Position numbers and translations under genes: made by a program
The notes under the pieces: generated by a model
Databases searched by the model: none
Seen by the model: the letters and a program-made list of their open reading frames with translations, nothing else
Told to the model about the DNA's origin: nothing
In this document: piece by piece, positions 8,193 to 15,251 of the stretch
Numbering within the stretch: position 1 is the stretch's first letter
Layout: each line of letters starts with the position of its first letter
From: Aliarcobacter cibarius
GTDB taxonomy: Bacteria; Campylobacterota; Campylobacteria; Campylobacterales; Arcobacteraceae
Length of the DNA: 64,000 nucleotides
NCBI RefSeq assembly: GCF_013372265.1
Contig: NZ_CP054051.1
Span: 1,686,587 to 1,750,586 of the forward strand
Reading direction: 5' to 3'

Positions 8193-8828
8193 TTAACTCC
8201 AAATCTCTAGCTGAGGGATACATGACATTGCTTTAAAAATATAACTTTTTGAAATTATCCCTTTTAAAGTTCCCTCTTCATTAACTACAGGCATTACTCC
8301 AACCTCAAAATCAAACATTATTTTTACAACATCTCGTAACTCAGCATCAGGAGTTGTTGCAATAATTTCAGGAAAATTAATTTCTCTTAATCTTCTATTT
8401 AAAAGTATATTAGGCTCATCTAAATTTTGAATCAATAAAGATAAAATAAACTTTGCATCTATTATTCCAACTATTTTCTTATCCAAAGTTGTAACTGGAA
8501 TTTGTCCAGTTTTTTTATCTTTTAAAAGCTCATAAGCTTCTCTTACTGTATGACTATTATCAATGTATAATACATCTTGAACCATAATATCTCTTACATA
8601 AAAAAAATTATTTGATTGATTAATTTGTGAAATTTTTTTGTAAGAGGATAAAAACTGCTCTTCTTTTTTTTTATTACTATTACTATCTTGTTCTTTTTTA
8701 AAATCTTTTATAGAACCTTCTTCAGGATTAAATGTAAATTTTGTACTTTCATTAACATTCTTTACATTATATAAATTCTCAGTTGAGCCTTTATAATCTA
8801 CAATTCCATTGTTATATATTGTAAACAT
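8193..8828 (-). CDS. Two-CBS-domain protein
   Basis: Residues about 78-130 (RDIMVQDVLYID to KKIVGIID) and 145-205 (LREINFP to GIISKSYIF) form a CBS pair, a module that binds adenosyl ligands and regulates attached or partner proteins. The first 70 residues are polar and rich in K, E, N and S, probably disordered. There is no catalytic domain and no membrane segment, so this is a sensor or regulator with unknown partner. It converges on the diguanylate cyclase; the next gene on its strand is the NifU-like gene 73 bases upstream, so its transcription could extend from there. Confidence 0.8.
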   Translation of the reverse strand: MFTIYNNGIVDYKGSTENLYNVKNVNESTKFTFNPEEGSIKDFKKEQDSNSNKKKEEQFLSSYKKISQINQSNNFFYVRDIMVQDVLYIDNSHTVREAYELLKDKKTGQIPVTTLDKKIVGIIDAKFILSLLIQNLDEPNILLNRRLREINFPEIIATTPDAELRDVVKIMFDFEVGVMPVVNEEGTLKGIISKSYIFKAMSCIPQLEIWS

Positions 8829-8901: not shown

Positions 8902-9843
8902 TTATATAGGTAGAACTCTTATATTTTCATCAATTTTTCTTTGTAAAATTGATTCAATTGCATATAAAGTTCCCATACTTCCAGCACTACAACCACTACA
9001 AGCACCTAGATATCTTATATATAAATCATAATGTGGAGCAGATTCTACTATATCCAATATTTCCATATTACCACCGTCCATAATTAACATTGGTCTTATA
9101 TCTTCATCTAAAACATCTTCAATAAGCTCAATTTTTTGCTCTTTTATCATATTTGAAAATGTGGAATTAATGTAACTTGGTTCCTCTTTATTAGCTTCTT
9201 TAATTTCTTCAAGAGTTTGTTCTAAAATATCTACTAGGTATATCTCTTTTGGTTCTAAACCACCCTCTTTTATACATGATTTACAAAATATTCCAGCTTT
9301 TGTTATATTTCCTATCTCTTCAACTGTTGTTATTGAAAATTCTTTTATAGCGTCTTTTACATTTTTTAATGTAACTCTTGCACATTCACAAACAATATAA
9401 TCATCTTCAAAATCATTCATATCTCTTTTTTCAGAGTTTAACGCCGCTTTTTTTAAAACAACAAAATTTGTAAATTTTTCATGTAGTTCTGTTATTCCAA
9501 GTGCTGGAATTTGTGGTTCATCTCTTAATGCAAATTCAACATCTGTCTTAAACAAATTTGCAACTTTCTCTACGCTTTTAAATATACAAAGTTCTGTCAT
9601 CATATCATTTAATGCCAATAACAAACCACCAGTAAATGATTTAAATTTTGCTCTTACAATAATATTATCTTTGTTTACGGCCCAATACATTCTTATTGTA
9701 TCAGCACCATTTGTTTCAAAATCAGCGACAACCAATCGACAACCTAAATCTCTCGCCTCACTTCTTGAAATTTCACCAATATTTTTTGGATCGTTTATTC
9801 TATCTTCTATTTTTTTTGAGTAATTCACTTCTTTTTGTTCCAT
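8902..9843 (-). CDS. NifU-like Fe-S protein with degenerate scaffold domain
   Basis: Three-domain NifU layout: IscU-like domain (about 8-135), BFD-like [2Fe-2S] domain (C152, C154, C187, C190) and Nfu domain with CSGC at 282-285. The last two keep all ligands. In the first domain the three scaffold cysteines expected from NifU/IscU are replaced: G46 in the NGADTIRMYW segment, G72 in FKSFTGG, and E122 in LHEKF, while the neighbouring Asp (D48) remains. Assembly on that domain is therefore unlikely, and a carrier or electron-transfer role through the other domains is inferred. It is divergent from the suf operon, with an operator-like site at each promoter. At 313 aa it is close to the length of Helicobacter NifU. 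Confidence 0.88.
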   Translation of the reverse strand: MEQKEVNYSKKIEDRINDPKNIGEISRSEARDLGCRLVVADFETNGADTIRMYWAVNKDNIIVRAKFKSFTGGLLLALNDMMTELCIFKSVEKVANLFKTDVEFALRDEPQIPALGITELHEKFTNFVVLKKAALNSEKRDMNDFEDDYIVCECARVTLKNVKDAIKEFSITTVEEIGNITKAGIFCKSCIKEGGLEPKEIYLVDILEQTLEEIKEANKEEPSYINSTFSNMIKEQKIELIEDVLDEDIRPMLIMDGGNMEILDIVESAPHYDLYIRYLGACSGCSAGSMGTLYAIESILQRKIDENIRVLPI

Positions 9844-9888
9844 TATAGAATTTCCATTATTTATTTAATATTTTTGATATTTTATAAA

Positions 9889-9913
9889 ATATAGGATAAA
9901 TTTTGTCTTAATT
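9889..9913. promoter_or_regulatory. Second operator-like site, at the NifU-like gene promoter
   Basis: Bases 9891-9913 match 18 of 23 positions of the palindrome before sufB (10019-10041), including a full right half GTCTTAATT. It overlaps the predicted start region of the minus-strand NifU-like gene. Its left half is degenerate, so binding would be weaker. Confidence 0.4.
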
Positions 9914-9916
9914 ATA
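9911..9916 (-). promoter_or_regulatory. -10 element for the NifU-like gene
   Basis: TATAAT on minus, 67 bases before the ATG at 9843, directly abutting the operator-like site 9889-9913. Confidence 0.4.
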
Positions 9917-10004
9917 AAATACCATAAATTGGTACTTTTTTAAGATAAAATTAAATATTTTTACTATTTATCAGTTTTTATGTCTTTACATTATATACTT
10001 ATTT

Positions 10005-10013
10005 TGATATTAT
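10005..10013 (+). promoter_or_regulatory. Extended -10 element for the suf operon
   Basis: TGA followed by TATTAT, an extended -10 form. Start would fall near 10020, inside the palindrome 10017-10041, about 50 bases before sufB. Confidence 0.5.
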
Positions 10014-10016
10014 TCG

Positions 10017-10041
10017 AATTAGGACAATATTAGTCTTAATT
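10017..10041. promoter_or_regulatory. Palindromic operator-like site before sufB (IscR type-1-like core)
   Basis: AATTAGGAC, seven bases, then GTCTTAATT: 9-base arms with one mismatch. The central 13 bases GACAATATTAGTC fit the core GAC-N7-GTC of the E. coli IscR type-1 consensus as I remember it (12 of 13 core positions); the outer flanks do not. Its position over the start site suits a repressor. Confidence 0.5.
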
Positions 10042-10069
10042 AAAATCAAATAAATTTTACGGAGAAGTC

Positions 10070-11506
10070 ATGAGTGAAAACCAACAAATACATGACATTA
10101 TAAACACTGATTATAAACTTGGCTTTGAAACTTTAGTACAAAGTGATACTTTTGCAAAAGGTTTAAATGAAGATGTTATAAGAGCTATTAGTGCAAAAAA
10201 AGAAGAGCCTGAGTTTTTACTTGAGTTTAGACTTAAAGCTTATGAAAAATGGCTTAAAATGGAAGAGCCTACTTGGACAAATTTAGAATATCCAAAAATA
10301 GATTATCAAGATTACGCATACTATTCAGCACCTAAAAAACCTCTTGGTTCTTTAGAAGAAGTTGATCCTGAAATTTTAAAAACTTATGAAAAACTAGGAA
10401 TTCCACTTGAAGAGCAAAAAATGCTTGCTGGTGTTGCAGTTGATGCTGTGTTCGATTCTGTTTCTATAAAAACTACTTACCAAGAAGAGCTTGAAAAATT
10501 AGGAATTATATTTTGCTCTATTAGTGAAGCATCTCATAGATTTCCAGAACTTGTAAAAACATACTTAGCAAGTGTCGTTCCTGTAACAGATAATTATTTT
10601 GCTTGTTTAAATAGTGCAGTTTTTACAGATGGAAGTTTTGTATATATTCCAAAAAATACAAGATGTCCTATGGAACTTTCAACTTATTTTAGAATAAATG
10701 CTTTAAATACAGGGCAATTTGAAAGAACTCTAATTATTTGTGATGAGGGAAGTTATGTTTCATACAATGAAGGATGTTCTGCTCCAAGTAGAGATGATAG
10801 ACAACTTCATGCTGCTGTTGTTGAATTAGTTGCACTTAAAAATGGTCATATAAAATATTCAACTATTCAAAACTGGTATCCCGGAGATGATGAAGGTAAA
10901 GGTGGAATCTTAAACTTTGTTACAAAAAGAGCTTTATGCAAAGGTGATAATTCAAAAGTATCTTGGACACAAGTTGAAACTGGTTCAAGTATTACATGGA
11001 AATATCCTTCATGTGTTCTTCAAGGTGACAATAGTGTAGGAGAATTTTACTCTGTTGCTGTTACTTCAAGAGCTCAACAAGCAGATACTGGCACAAAAAT
11101 GATTCATTTAGGTAAAAATACTAAGTCTACAATCATTTCAAAAGGTATTTCTGCTATGAAGGGTATAAATGCTTACAGAGGACAAGTAAGAGTTGGAAAA
11201 AATGCTCACAATGCTAGAAACATATCAGAGTGTGACTCTTTACTAATTGGTCACAAATCTCAAGCGCATACATATCCTTATCATGAGATTAGAAATAGTA
11301 GTGCAAATATTGAGCATGAAGCAACTACATCTAAAATATCAGATGAACAACTATTTTATTTAAATCAACGAGGAATAGATGAAGAAGATGCTATTGCTAT
11401 GATTGTAAATGGTTTTTGTAAAGAAGTTTTAAAAGAGTTACCAATGGAGTTTGCTGCTGAAGCAAAAGAGTTATTAAGTATTTCATTAGAAGGAAGTGTG
11501 GGTTAA
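10070..11506 (+). CDS. sufB: Fe-S cluster scaffold subunit SufB
   Basis: Core scaffold of the SUF machine, forming SufBC2D where clusters are assembled. At 478 aa it has the usual length. The C-terminal beta-helix and helical region show [12 protein letters not shown], with the conserved cysteine that accepts sulfur or binds the cluster, and [27 protein letters not shown], typical of SufB. ATG with GGAGAA eight bases upstream. It is the first gene of a six-gene operon; the gap to sufC is two bases. Regulation by an Rrf2-type or other Fe-S/iron sensor is suggested by the palindrome at the start site. Confidence 0.98.
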
Positions 11507-11508
11507 TT

Positions 11509-12279
11509 ATGAGTAAAGAAGTATTATTAAAAATTGAAGATTTAAAAGTAAATATAAACAATAATGAGATTTTAAAAGGATTAAATTTAGAGATAAAACC
11601 AGGTGAAATTCACGCACTTATGGGAGTAAATGGAGCTGGTAAATCTACTTTAGTTAAAACTTTAGCAGCTCATTACGACTGTGAAGTTACTGGTGGTAAA
11701 GTTACATTTAAAAACAAAGATTTATTAGAAATGGATGTTTCAACAAGAGCAAATGAGGGAATTTTTATGAGTTTTCAAAGTCCTGTTGAAGTTCCTGGAG
11801 TTAATAATAGCTATTTTTTAAGAACAGCGATGAATGCAAAAAGAGCTTATGAAGGAAAAGAAGAGCTTGATGCAATGCAATTTCTTAAACTTGTAAAAGA
11901 AGAAACTAATAAATTTGATATTGATAGAAAACTATTACAAAGAGATTTAAATGATGGATTTAGTGGTGGAGAGAAAAAAAGAAATGAACTTGTTCAACTT
12001 TTAATGCTAAACCCTGATTTGATCATGCTAGATGAAATTGATAGTGGACTTGATGTTGATGCTATTAAAATAGTTGCAAATGTTATAAACTCTATGCTTG
12101 ATGGTAAAAAATCTATTCTTATGATTACTCACTATGATAGACTTTTAGAACTTATAAAACCAGATTTTGTTCATATTTTAAGTGATGGAAAAATAGCTAA
12201 AACTGGAGATTATAGTTTAGCTTTAGAACTAGATGAGAAAGGTTTTGAAGCATTAGGAATAAACAATGCAAATAGCTAA
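11509..12279 (+). CDS. sufC: SUF ATPase SufC
   Basis: ABC-type ATPase that drives conformational change of SufB-SufD. Walker A GVNGAGKST is near residue 44, Q-loop SFQSP, the signature FSGGEKKRNE, and Walker B LIMLDEIDSGLD with the D-loop. There are no membrane segments; 256 aa is standard. Its 3' end overlaps the start of sufD by 14 bases, which would couple translation of the two partner subunits. Confidence 0.98.
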   Translation: MSKEVLLKIEDLKVNINNNEILKGLNLEIKPGEIHALMGVNGAGKSTLVKTLAAHYDCEVTGGKVTFKNKDLLEMDVSTRANEGIFMSFQSPVEVPGVNNSYFLRTAMNAKRAYEGKEELDAMQFLKLVKEETNKFDIDRKLLQRDLNDGFSGGEKKRNELVQLLMLNPDLIMLDEIDSGLDVDAIKIVANVINSMLDGKKSILMITHYDRLLELIKPDFVHILSDGKIAKTGDYSLALELDEKGFEALGINNANS

Positions 12280-13297
12280 TATAAAAGATTTAAATCTACC
12301 TTCAAAAAAAGAAGAAGAGTTTTTAAAGATAGATTTTGCATCTTTATTTGACTTTGATTTTAAAGCTCATAAAGTTTTATCTTTTGATTTAGATTTAAAT
12401 TCTGTAAATGATACAGAAGATTATGAATCAAAGCTTTTTTCTATTGCAAATAGCTTTGACAATAACAAAAAAGTTTTAACTATAAAAGAAAATTTACAAG
12501 AGCCTTTAGTAATTGTAAATAATTTAAAAGTAGATTCAACTGTTTTTACAAACAACCTTTTAATAGAAATTAAAAGTGGAATAAAAGCAAGCATTATTGA
12601 AGTTTTTGTTTCAAATTCAAAAGATGCTTCACTTTTTGCAAATAGAACAATAAAATTAGAGAAAGATGCTTCTTTGGAATATGCAAAAATTCAAGATATT
12701 AATCTTTCTAATTCTCTTGTTTTTTGTTGTAAATCAGTTCAAGATGACAAGTCAAATTTAGAGATTTCAAACTTTGAATTAGCAGATGGATTTGTTGTAA
12801 ATAGTTTTGAAAATAAAATTAATTCTGTTGAAGTAAATTATGAGTTAAATGGTTTAAATAAATTAAGAAACAGTGCAAACTGCTCAACATTAGTAAAAAC
12901 AACTCATAATAATCAAAGTTCAAGAAGTAATATAAATTACAAAAATTCTTTACTAGATTCAAGTAGAGCTGTAGTTAAAATCAAATCTATTGTTACACAA
13001 AAAGGTCTTTACTCAAAAGCTTTCCAAAACTGTAATTCAATTCTATTAAGTGATGATGCTGTTATTTTTGCTCAACCATTTTTAGAGATTTTTATAGATG
13101 AGTTAGAAGCTAGTCATGGAACAACAACTGGAACATTAAACAAAGACCAACTTTTATATCTTCAAAGTAGAGGAATTAGTAAAGAGCAATCTTATGAAAT
13201 ACTTTTAGAAGCATTTGAAAACTCTATAAAAGATAATATTAAAGATGAAAAAATTAAACAATTTATAGAAGAGTATAAAAAAGAAAACTATGTATAA
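12266..13297 (+). CDS. sufD: SUF scaffold partner SufD
   Basis: Paralogue of SufB that completes the SufBC2D scaffold. At 343 aa it is shorter than E. coli SufD (423 aa), with a reduced N-terminal region. The C-terminus has EASHGTTTGTLNKDQLLYLQSRGI; the histidine of ASHG corresponds to the conserved SufD histidine implicated in cluster assembly. The ATG at 12266 lies inside the sufC end, and the stop overlaps sufS by 8 bases. Confidence 0.93.
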   Translation: MQIANIKDLNLPSKKEEEFLKIDFASLFDFDFKAHKVLSFDLDLNSVNDTEDYESKLFSIANSFDNNKKVLTIKENLQEPLVIVNNLKVDSTVFTNNLLIEIKSGIKASIIEVFVSNSKDASLFANRTIKLEKDASLEYAKIQDINLSNSLVFCCKSVQDDKSNLEISNFELADGFVVNSFENKINSVEVNYELNGLNKLRNSANCSTLVKTTHNNQSSRSNINYKNSLLDSSRAVVKIKSIVTQKGLYSKAFQNCNSILLSDDAVIFAQPFLEIFIDELEASHGTTTGTLNKDQLLYLQSRGISKEQSYEILLEAFENSIKDNIKDEKIKQFIEEYKKENYV

Positions 13298-14477
13298 AAA
13301 AGATTTTCCATATTTTAGTAACTCAAATAGTGTTTATTTAGACAATGGGGCAACGACTCAAAAGCCTCAAGCTGTAATTGGTGCAACAGTCGATTACTAC
13401 TCAAAATATTGTTCAAATACACACAGAAGTAGTTTTGGAGATGCAAATAAATCTACAACAGAGTTTGAAAACACAAGAGAAGTTTTAAGAAGATTTATAA
13501 ATGCAAATAAAAAAGAAGAAATAATTTTTACAAAAGGGGTAACTGAAAGTATAAATTTCATAGCCTCTTCTTTTGCAAGAAGATTTAAAACAATCATCAT
13601 CTCAAGTCTTGAGCACCACGCAAATATTGTGCCTTGGCATATGCAAAATAGAACTTTAGGAAATGGTCTTGAAGTTGTAAATTGTAATGAAAATTTAGAT
13701 TTTGATTTTACTCATTTTGAAGAACTTTTAAAATCAAATCCAAACTCTTTTGTAAGTATTGCTCACGTAACAAATGCTTTTGGAAAAGTTCATGATATAA
13801 AAAGAATTATCTCTTTAGCTCACTCTTACAACTGCCCTATTTTAATAGATGGTGCTCAAAGTTTAAGTAGTTTTAAAATAGATGTTCAAGAACTTGACTG
13901 TGATTTTTTTGCCATTTCAGGACACAAAACTTTTGGACCAACTGGAGTTGGAGCTATTTATATAAAAGAAAAATTTCATGATTTAGTAGAACCTTATCAA
14001 ACAGGTGGAGCTGTAATAAATATTGTTGATTTAGAAAAAGGGAGTACTTTTTTACCAAGTCCATATAAATTTGAAGCTGGAACTCAAAATATTGCAGGAG
14101 TTATTGCATTTTCTAAAGCTTTAGAATATGTAGAAAATATTGGATATGAAACAATACAAAAAAGAAAAAAAGAACTTTTAGAATACCTTGATAGTGAACT
14201 TAGAAAACTTCCCGATATAATATTTTATAATGATTTAAAAGATTGTAGTGGAACTAGAAGTTTCAACTTTAAAGGTATCATGCATGATGATATTTCAATA
14301 TTACTTGACAAACTAAAAGTTGCAGTTAGAGTTGGTCATCATTGTGCCCAACCAATTATGAAAAAACTTGGAGTAAAAGGGACTATAAGAGTTAGCCTTG
14401 CTTTTTATAATGATTTTGAAGATATTGATAAACTTATGGTTGCTCTTAAAAAAGCACTTTCTATGTTAAAGGATTAA
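13290..14477 (+). CDS. sufS: Cysteine desulfurase SufS (group II)
   Basis: PLP enzyme that takes sulfur from cysteine to an enzyme persulfide and passes it to SufE. The Schiff-base lysine is K213 in SGHKTFGPTG, and the persulfide cysteine is C352 in RVGHHCAQP, followed by GTIRVSLAFYND. DGAQS supplies the PLP aspartate. 395 aa is typical. It overlaps sufD by 8 bases and is followed six bases later by sufE, its sulfur acceptor. Confidence 0.97.
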   Translation: MYKKDFPYFSNSNSVYLDNGATTQKPQAVIGATVDYYSKYCSNTHRSSFGDANKSTTEFENTREVLRRFINANKKEEIIFTKGVTESINFIASSFARRFKTIIISSLEHHANIVPWHMQNRTLGNGLEVVNCNENLDFDFTHFEELLKSNPNSFVSIAHVTNAFGKVHDIKRIISLAHSYNCPILIDGAQSLSSFKIDVQELDCDFFAISGHKTFGPTGVGAIYIKEKFHDLVEPYQTGGAVINIVDLEKGSTFLPSPYKFEAGTQNIAGVIAFSKALEYVENIGYETIQKRKKELLEYLDSELRKLPDIIFYNDLKDCSGTRSFNFKGIMHDDISILLDKLKVAVRVGHHCAQPIMKKLGVKGTIRVSLAFYNDFEDIDKLMVALKKALSMLKD

Positions 14478-14483
14478 AAAATT

Positions 14484-14891
14484 ATGAGTATAAAACAAAG
14501 AATTGAAAATATAAAAGAAGATTTAGAATTTTTCGATGAAGAGTTAGCAAAATATGAATATATTATAGATTTAGGTAAAAAACTTCCTTCATTTGATGAA
14601 AAGAATCAAATTCCTGAAAACTTAGTTCATGGATGCACTTCGCAAGTTTGGTTAATTTGTGAAAAAAAAGATGACAAACTGTTTTTTTATGGAACAAGTG
14701 ACGCAATAATAGTAAAAGGTTTAGTTTATATTATTTTAGAAATTTTCTCAAACTCTACAATACAGGAGTTAAAAGAAGTTGACATGGATATTATAAGAGA
14801 ATTAAATTTAAGTGAAGTTATTACTCCAAATAGACAAAGTGGAGTTATTGGAATGATTAAAAAAATAAAAGAATATGCTTTAAAATATTAA
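14484..14891 (+). CDS. sufE: Sulfur acceptor SufE
   Basis: Accepts persulfide sulfur from SufS and delivers it to SufBCD. The acceptor cysteine is C51 in VHGCTSQVWL, the family signature. 135 aa is standard. The zinc-binding SufU alternative lacks this motif, so this operon uses the SufE route. Six bases follow sufS and nine precede the DUF59 gene. Confidence 0.95.
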   Translation: MSIKQRIENIKEDLEFFDEELAKYEYIIDLGKKLPSFDEKNQIPENLVHGCTSQVWLICEKKDDKLFFYGTSDAIIVKGLVYIILEIFSNSTIQELKEVDMDIIRELNLSEVITPNRQSGVIGMIKKIKEYALKY

Positions 14892-14900
14892 GGAAAAATA

Positions 14901-15251
14901 ATGAACGGAATTTTCAATAAAGAAGAGATAAAAGAAAAAATTATAGAGAATTTAAAAAAAGTTTATGACCCAGAAATACCTGTAGACATTTATAATTTAG
15001 GGTTAATTTATAATATAGAACTTGAAGAAAGAGAAAATTATCTATTTTGTGAAATAGAAATGACTCTTACAAGTCCGGCTTGTCCTGTAGCTGACAGCTT
15101 ACTAGAACAAGTAAGATACGTAGCAATGGCAGTTGATGAAGTAGATGAAGCAAAAGTTAATCTAGTATTTGAACCTGTTTGGGAACCTCACATGATGAGT
15201 GAAGATGCAAAAGAGATTATGGGAGCAAGTGGAGCTGCTATCTCTTGGTAA
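14901..15251 (+). CDS. SUF-associated DUF59/MIP18-family protein (SufT-like)
   Basis: Small acidic DUF59 protein. DPEIPVDIYNLGLIYNIE and MTLTSPACPVADSLLEQVR are the family hallmarks, the second with the conserved cysteine of TSPAC. Related proteins (SufT, PaaD, yeast Cia2) act in maturation of Fe-S proteins rather than basic cluster assembly. Here it is the last gene of the suf operon with a good GGA site. The C-terminal WEPHMMSEDAKEIMG is common in SUF-linked members. The exact client is unknown. Confidence 0.88.
   Translation: MNGIFNKEEIKEKIIENLKKVYDPEIPVDIYNLGLIYNIELEERENYLFCEIEMTLTSPACPVADSLLEQVRYVAMAVDEVDEAKVNLVFEPVWEPHMMSEDAKEIMGASGAAISW

Follow-up and report, generated by a model that had tools for sequence, protein, structure and literature searches.

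SufU, the IscU-fold protein of Gram-positive SUF systems, keeps its cysteines as a Zn site and moves sulfur. The usual task of NifU is to assemble iron-sulfur clusters together with the enzyme NifS. The NifU of Helicobacter pylori is a hub in contact with 29 Fe-S proteins (PMC8144621). NfuA is directed to apo-proteins by an A-type domain that is degenerate and Cys-less, and this domain is required in vivo (PMC8593673). A named member of the genus considered here, Arcobacter butzleri, has been listed as having ‘SufBD, IscU’ (PMC8896826). Our literature search, mostly without subscription papers, found no published description of a NifU that lacks its scaffold cysteines. Such a protein is encoded in the window analysed here, a stretch of 64,000 nucleotides from the 2.34 Mb genome of Aliarcobacter cibarius, and its sequence suggests that it is probably a former NIF scaffold turned dedicated Fe-S carrier behind SUF.

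Ligand sites and surroundings of the Cys-less NifU

The product of this nifU (Table 1) carries NifU_N, Fer2_BFD and Nfu domains in the order typical of NIF-type NifU, as judged from Pfam and fold models; the plus-strand reading of 8902–9843 is stop-ridden. All 81 intact Arcobacteraceae NifU sequences used as reference carry AESCGD, FGCGT and MHCS without variation. Aligned with these sequences, the protein has G72 (9628–9630) in place of the FGCGT cysteine and E122 (9478–9480) in place of the MHCS cysteine, as an earlier note on this DNA had claimed; the first cysteine, for which the note had named G46 as the replacement, falls in a one-residue deletion beside G46 (9706–9708). None of the three conserved cysteines of a NIF scaffold is therefore present, which confirms the note's observation. 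The note was right that the fold residues D48, FKSF (67–70) and KKAA (131–134) are kept, and that the [2Fe-2S] ligands C152, C154, C187 and C190 are intact, as is CSGC (282–285), the CxxC motif that marks an Nfu-type carrier. Neither of the two cysteines that it had considered as occupants of the scaffold site holds up in the alignment and model: C86 aligns with a non-ligand cysteine of the intact proteins (threonine in two), and C35, with which strand 36–43 opens, is away from the loop and missing in G013 and G030. Nor is the loss due to misalignment or a frameshift, since the reading frames of 14 orthologues are uninterrupted.

When the whole protein is modelled (mean pLDDT 80.2), the N-domain takes an IscU fold (Z 16.2). 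Because its alignment contained intact sequences, the N-domain was modelled again from 13 Cys-less sequences only; in this model (pLDDT 66.6, residues 100–139 poor) the closest structure is still ISCU/IscU (Z 10.9). Pfam found no A-type domain in the protein and the top structural matches were IscU/ISCU chains, which sets it outside the NfuA class. The domain passes the Pfam NifU_N cut-off, and matches to this family should thus not be counted as scaffolds. Against NCBIfam TIGR02000 the protein scores below the cut-off (104.6 against 273.3 bits), which is weak evidence since an intact genus mate (222.6) fails too.

Table 1. Features of the nifU–suf region, with positions in the window.
Feature	Position	Strand	Basis
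nifU (NifU-like protein of 313 aa that lacks the scaffold cysteines in its IscU-type domain)	8902..9843	minus	ORF, Pfam, alignment
Nfu domain, residues 241–310	8914..9123	minus	Pfam, alignment, fold
Fer2_BFD [2Fe-2S] domain, residues 150–192	9268..9396	minus	Pfam, alignment, fold
NifU_N (IscU-fold) domain, residues 8–133	9445..9822	minus	Pfam, alignment, fold models
Divergent nifU–sufB intergenic region, 226 bp	9844..10069		genome comparison
Operator-like inverted repeat TTAAGACAAAATTTATCCTA, upstream of nifU	9892..9911	minus	comparison with intact species
Second, variant copy of the TTAAGACAAAATTTATCCTA element, at sufB promoter	10020..10039	minus	comparison
sufB	10070..11506	plus	Pfam; TIGR01980 over cut-off
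sufC, ABC ATPase	11509..12279	plus	Walker A GVNGAGKST and SGGEKKR read in sequence, motifs only
sufD	12266..13297	plus	Pfam
sufS, cysteine desulfurase	13290..14477	plus	Pfam class-V aminotransferase
sufE	14484..14891	plus	Pfam
sufT-like (DUF59 / FeS_assembly_P)	14901..15251	plus	Pfam

The genes adjoining nifU include sufB, sufC, sufD, sufS and sufE together, the set that defines a SUF system and the full operon that the note had read there (SufC from motifs only). A whole-genome search with PF01592 returned this nifU as its single match, so that there is no separate IscU or SufU elsewhere in the source genome and no intact iscU or nifU of the kind that the note had said would count against it. 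In the same genome no TIGR03403 (NifS) match exceeded the cut-off (best 129.7 of 587.7 bits), and the A-type carrier family PF01521 had no match in any of 31 genus genomes, with control matches in E. coli and others. Since NifS, a further NifU_N protein and an A-type carrier are all absent, SUF is the only recognisable Fe-S builder in the source genome.

In intact genus mates, nifS lies between nifU and the sufB intergenic region; it is absent from the source genome. The operator-like element found here upstream of nifU precedes nifS in those intact species, and nifU therefore stands behind the old nif control site, near a related suf site. Conservation of this element over 19 genomes is better evidence than the count of pattern matches, which is descriptive only, the pattern having been derived from these very sites.

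Distribution of the loss and selection on the protein

Our sample comprised 31 genomes of the genus Arcobacter within 104 genomes of the family Arcobacteraceae, with nifS called where TIGR03403 scored over its cut-off. In the genus, 16 genomes have an intact NifU, 14 have a NifU without any of the three cysteines, and one (G023) yielded no NifU because its contig ends at sufB. The Cys-less genomes, among them A. vandammei, A. cryaerophilus and A. vitoriensis, form one clade with a support of 100 in both the RpoB tree and the nine-gene set tree, and in both the intact pair G003 and G012 are its nearest relatives. All three cysteines are missing in 14/14 members of this clade, which is not chance, and all three are kept in the other 81 of 81 family NifU proteins.

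In the genus, nifS is present in exactly the 16 genomes with an intact NifU, directly upstream of nifU, and across the 104 family genomes it is present exactly where the cysteines are kept, among those with a readable full-length NifU (the nifS-free G023, G060, G098, G100 and G103 yielded none and stand outside this comparison). The 14 Cys-less genomes lack nifS, and no other genome with a readable NifU does. Since the Cys-less genomes form one clade, this perfect match is to be read as one event in Arcobacteraceae: the 14 genomes are not 14 tests. In the nifS-free genus g31 (two of four genomes checked) SUF is present and NifU absent, and a short Nfu-domain protein is kept, at L265 525–854 (G115) and L266 582–926 (G137). 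The nifS-free G241 has frameshifts only.

The earlier note had named a clade-wide loss that tracks the presence of suf as support for its switch. The loss is clade-wide, with SUF the only recognisable assembly system left, but it tracks the absence of nifS: sufB is found in each of the 31 genus genomes, the 16 with an intact nifS–nifU among them, and in 77 of the 104 family members. Gain of SUF as the trigger of the loss was thus rejected, and the event was a deletion of nifS together with loss of the scaffold against a background of existing SUF. Of the NIF-to-SUF switch proposed in the note, the loss of the scaffold and the retention of the protein under selection stand; suf as its driver does not, since SUF was already there. 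The note had not noticed the loss of nifS. SUF preceded the change, and the change consisted of the loss of NifS and of the scaffold ligands.

No domain of NifU is better conserved among intact genus mates than NifU_N (95.6% identity); across the split between intact and Cys-less proteins its identity is 43.4%, the second lowest, with the linker alone lower. Across the same split the Nfu domain retains 76.5%, and the neighbouring SufB of the source genome shares 86–90% with the intact mates. The stem of the Cys-less clade carries about 0.57 changes per site in the N-domain, and pairwise dN/dS of this domain within the clade is 0.04–0.15, near the values of the intact group. The Cys-less domain thus underwent a sharp change on the stem and then returned to purifying selection. 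The role of the N-domain has changed, yet it is still selected and is not decaying.

It is unlikely that the N-domain is a relic, retained only for the folding or dimerisation of the rest of the protein and without a docking role. Intact NifU has 80 conserved sites in this domain, of which 30 are unchanged and 50 have moved (36 relaxed, 14 switched). These shifts count for the relic reading, as does the degenerate copy in g60 (described below), which dropped its Fdx domain and retained the rest; against it, the 14 switched sites have settled on new near-fixed residues, the domain is deleted in none of the 14 Cys-less genomes, and purifying selection followed the switch. Newly fixed residues on the surface of the domain are E43, N45, E119 and N126. 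We regard as very improbable a residual metal site, in which D48, H121 and residue 122 (E/N/D) would bind iron or a labile cluster and make the protein a weak scaffold or iron donor. Although D48 is invariant in 14/14 Cys-less proteins and H121 is found in 11/14, residue 121 varies between H, Y and E and residue 122 between E, N, D and V, a second lineage has lost the equivalent Asp too, and there is no NifS to feed such a site.

The G024 version of NifU may have an independent origin. This NifU and its CBS-domain neighbour are divergent although nine other genes put G024 next to A. vandammei, so that gene replacement by recombination is likely in this genome. At that locus (L181, about 11880–13500) the genes around the pair show much less divergence than nifU and the CBS-domain gene themselves, a recombination-like replacement pattern. 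In the window, the CBS-domain gene adjoining nifU (8193–8828) is unusually fast-evolving, with 36–46% identity to most clade members and 81–82% to the nearest two.

A degenerate pair in a second lineage

In Campylobacterales family f4, seven SUF-bearing genomes of two genera (G106, G158, G228, G329, G417, G196 and G301) have adjoining nifS and nifU genes that have both lost their active sites; other f4 genera have an intact NifS–NifU. In the f4 NifS the PLP lysine is gone (HKFHGPKG to ETLHAP(A/V)G or similar), as is the cysteine loop. The f4 NifU has lost the three scaffold cysteines and the Asp equivalent to D48 and has kept the Nfu CxxC in 7/7 genomes; five of these genomes retain the [2Fe-2S] ligands as well, and G196 and G301 have lost them. 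The loci with this pseudo-desulfurase and Cys-less NifU are L257 653–2820 (G158), L256, L258, L259, L260, L225 and L261; both genes remain under purifying selection, with dN/dS of 0.08–0.20 for the measurable pairs. An extra degenerate nifS–nifU pair, whose NifU is without the [2Fe-2S] domain, was seen in g60 at L262 638–2414 (G273) and L264 (G408); G273 carries an intact pair beside the degenerate one, and in G408 part of a NifU lies on a different contig.

Species placement, the retained pseudo-desulfurase and the different replacements point to a loss in f4 independent of that in Arcobacter, whereas the NifU gene tree, with its long branches, is also compatible with a single origin (AU p 0.34). 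We put at about even the prospect that NIF was disarmed more than once in SUF-bearing Campylobacterota, by deletion of nifS and stripping of the NifU cysteines in Arcobacter and by conversion into a conserved pseudo-desulfurase/pseudo-scaffold pair in f4, with the Nfu domain surviving both. If true, scaffolds would have turned into carriers by a route taken repeatedly, and the resulting class of Fe-S proteins is one to which databases still give the scaffold label. As a separate observation, many Campylobacterota have a second small IscU-like protein of about 150–185 aa (L211–L215, L219–L222 and L224), in which the first scaffold cysteine seems to fall in a gap and which has a conserved ORF of about 280 aa as neighbour.

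Proposed role and known systems

Because the cysteines and NifS are lost, the protein is still strongly preserved and SUF is adjacent, we read the Cys-less NifU as a SUF delivery protein. Most likely it would act behind SufBCD as a carrier of Fe-S clusters, similar to NfuA, whose docking domain has degenerated. In such a scheme SufBCD would build clusters with sulfur from SufS–SufE; the Cys-less NifU would take these onto its Nfu CxxC, bridging a dimer, and hand them to apo-proteins. The Fdx-type [2Fe-2S] domain possibly gives electrons for cluster conversion, and the IscU-fold domain, without a cluster, may serve in docking to clients or in dimerisation, like the A-type domain of NfuA. The loss of three ligands, its coupling to nifS loss in the presence of SUF, purifying selection, the lack of an A-type carrier and of a second NifU_N protein and the intact Nfu and [2Fe-2S] motifs count for a carrier, as do the position behind the former nifS control site, the Nfu CxxC kept in f4 and the precedents of NfuA and H. 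pylori NifU; other carriers, present or possible, count against one, namely a short Nfu (G000:C1:879930–880145), SufT and perhaps ApbC/Mrp.

The protein might instead be a redox partner that supplies SufBCD with electrons through its Fdx-type domain, with the Nfu and N-domains secondary. The Arcobacter clade has lost none of the four [2Fe-2S] ligands and the electron donor of SufBC2D is reported as unknown (PMC8593673), but we find this rather unlikely: within the clade Nfu is the best-conserved domain and constraint on the Fdx domain is looser, with pairwise dN/dS reaching 0.3 and, in one pair, 0.75, and G196 and G301 gave up the [2Fe-2S] ligands and retained the Nfu CxxC. The Nfu CxxC, present in every degenerate NifU, is their common feature, and for these reasons the carrier role is favoured. 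The Cys-less NifU would represent a natural split of the two jobs of NifU, building and delivering clusters, and since a single genus has intact and disarmed orthologues at one and the same locus, the non-building role of the IscU-type domain is directly testable.

Compared with known systems, the protein resembles NIF-type NifU (Azotobacter vinelandii, H. pylori) in its three-domain order, IscU fold, [2Fe-2S] ligands and Nfu CxxC, and its locus is that of the intact nifS–nifU in genus mates; it differs in lacking the three scaffold cysteines, in a genome without NifS and with SUF. With SufU it shares the IscU fold and a SUF operon as neighbour; unlike SufU it is without cysteines at those positions, and its genome encodes SufE. 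The f4 pair matches it in the lost scaffold cysteines, the kept Nfu CxxC and the presence of SUF, and differs in retaining a pseudo-desulfurase NifS alongside. In NfuA of E. coli and A. vinelandii, as here, a degenerate, Cys-less Fe-S domain is joined to a working Nfu domain (PMC8593673), although in NfuA that domain is A-type rather than IscU-type and there is no [2Fe-2S] domain.
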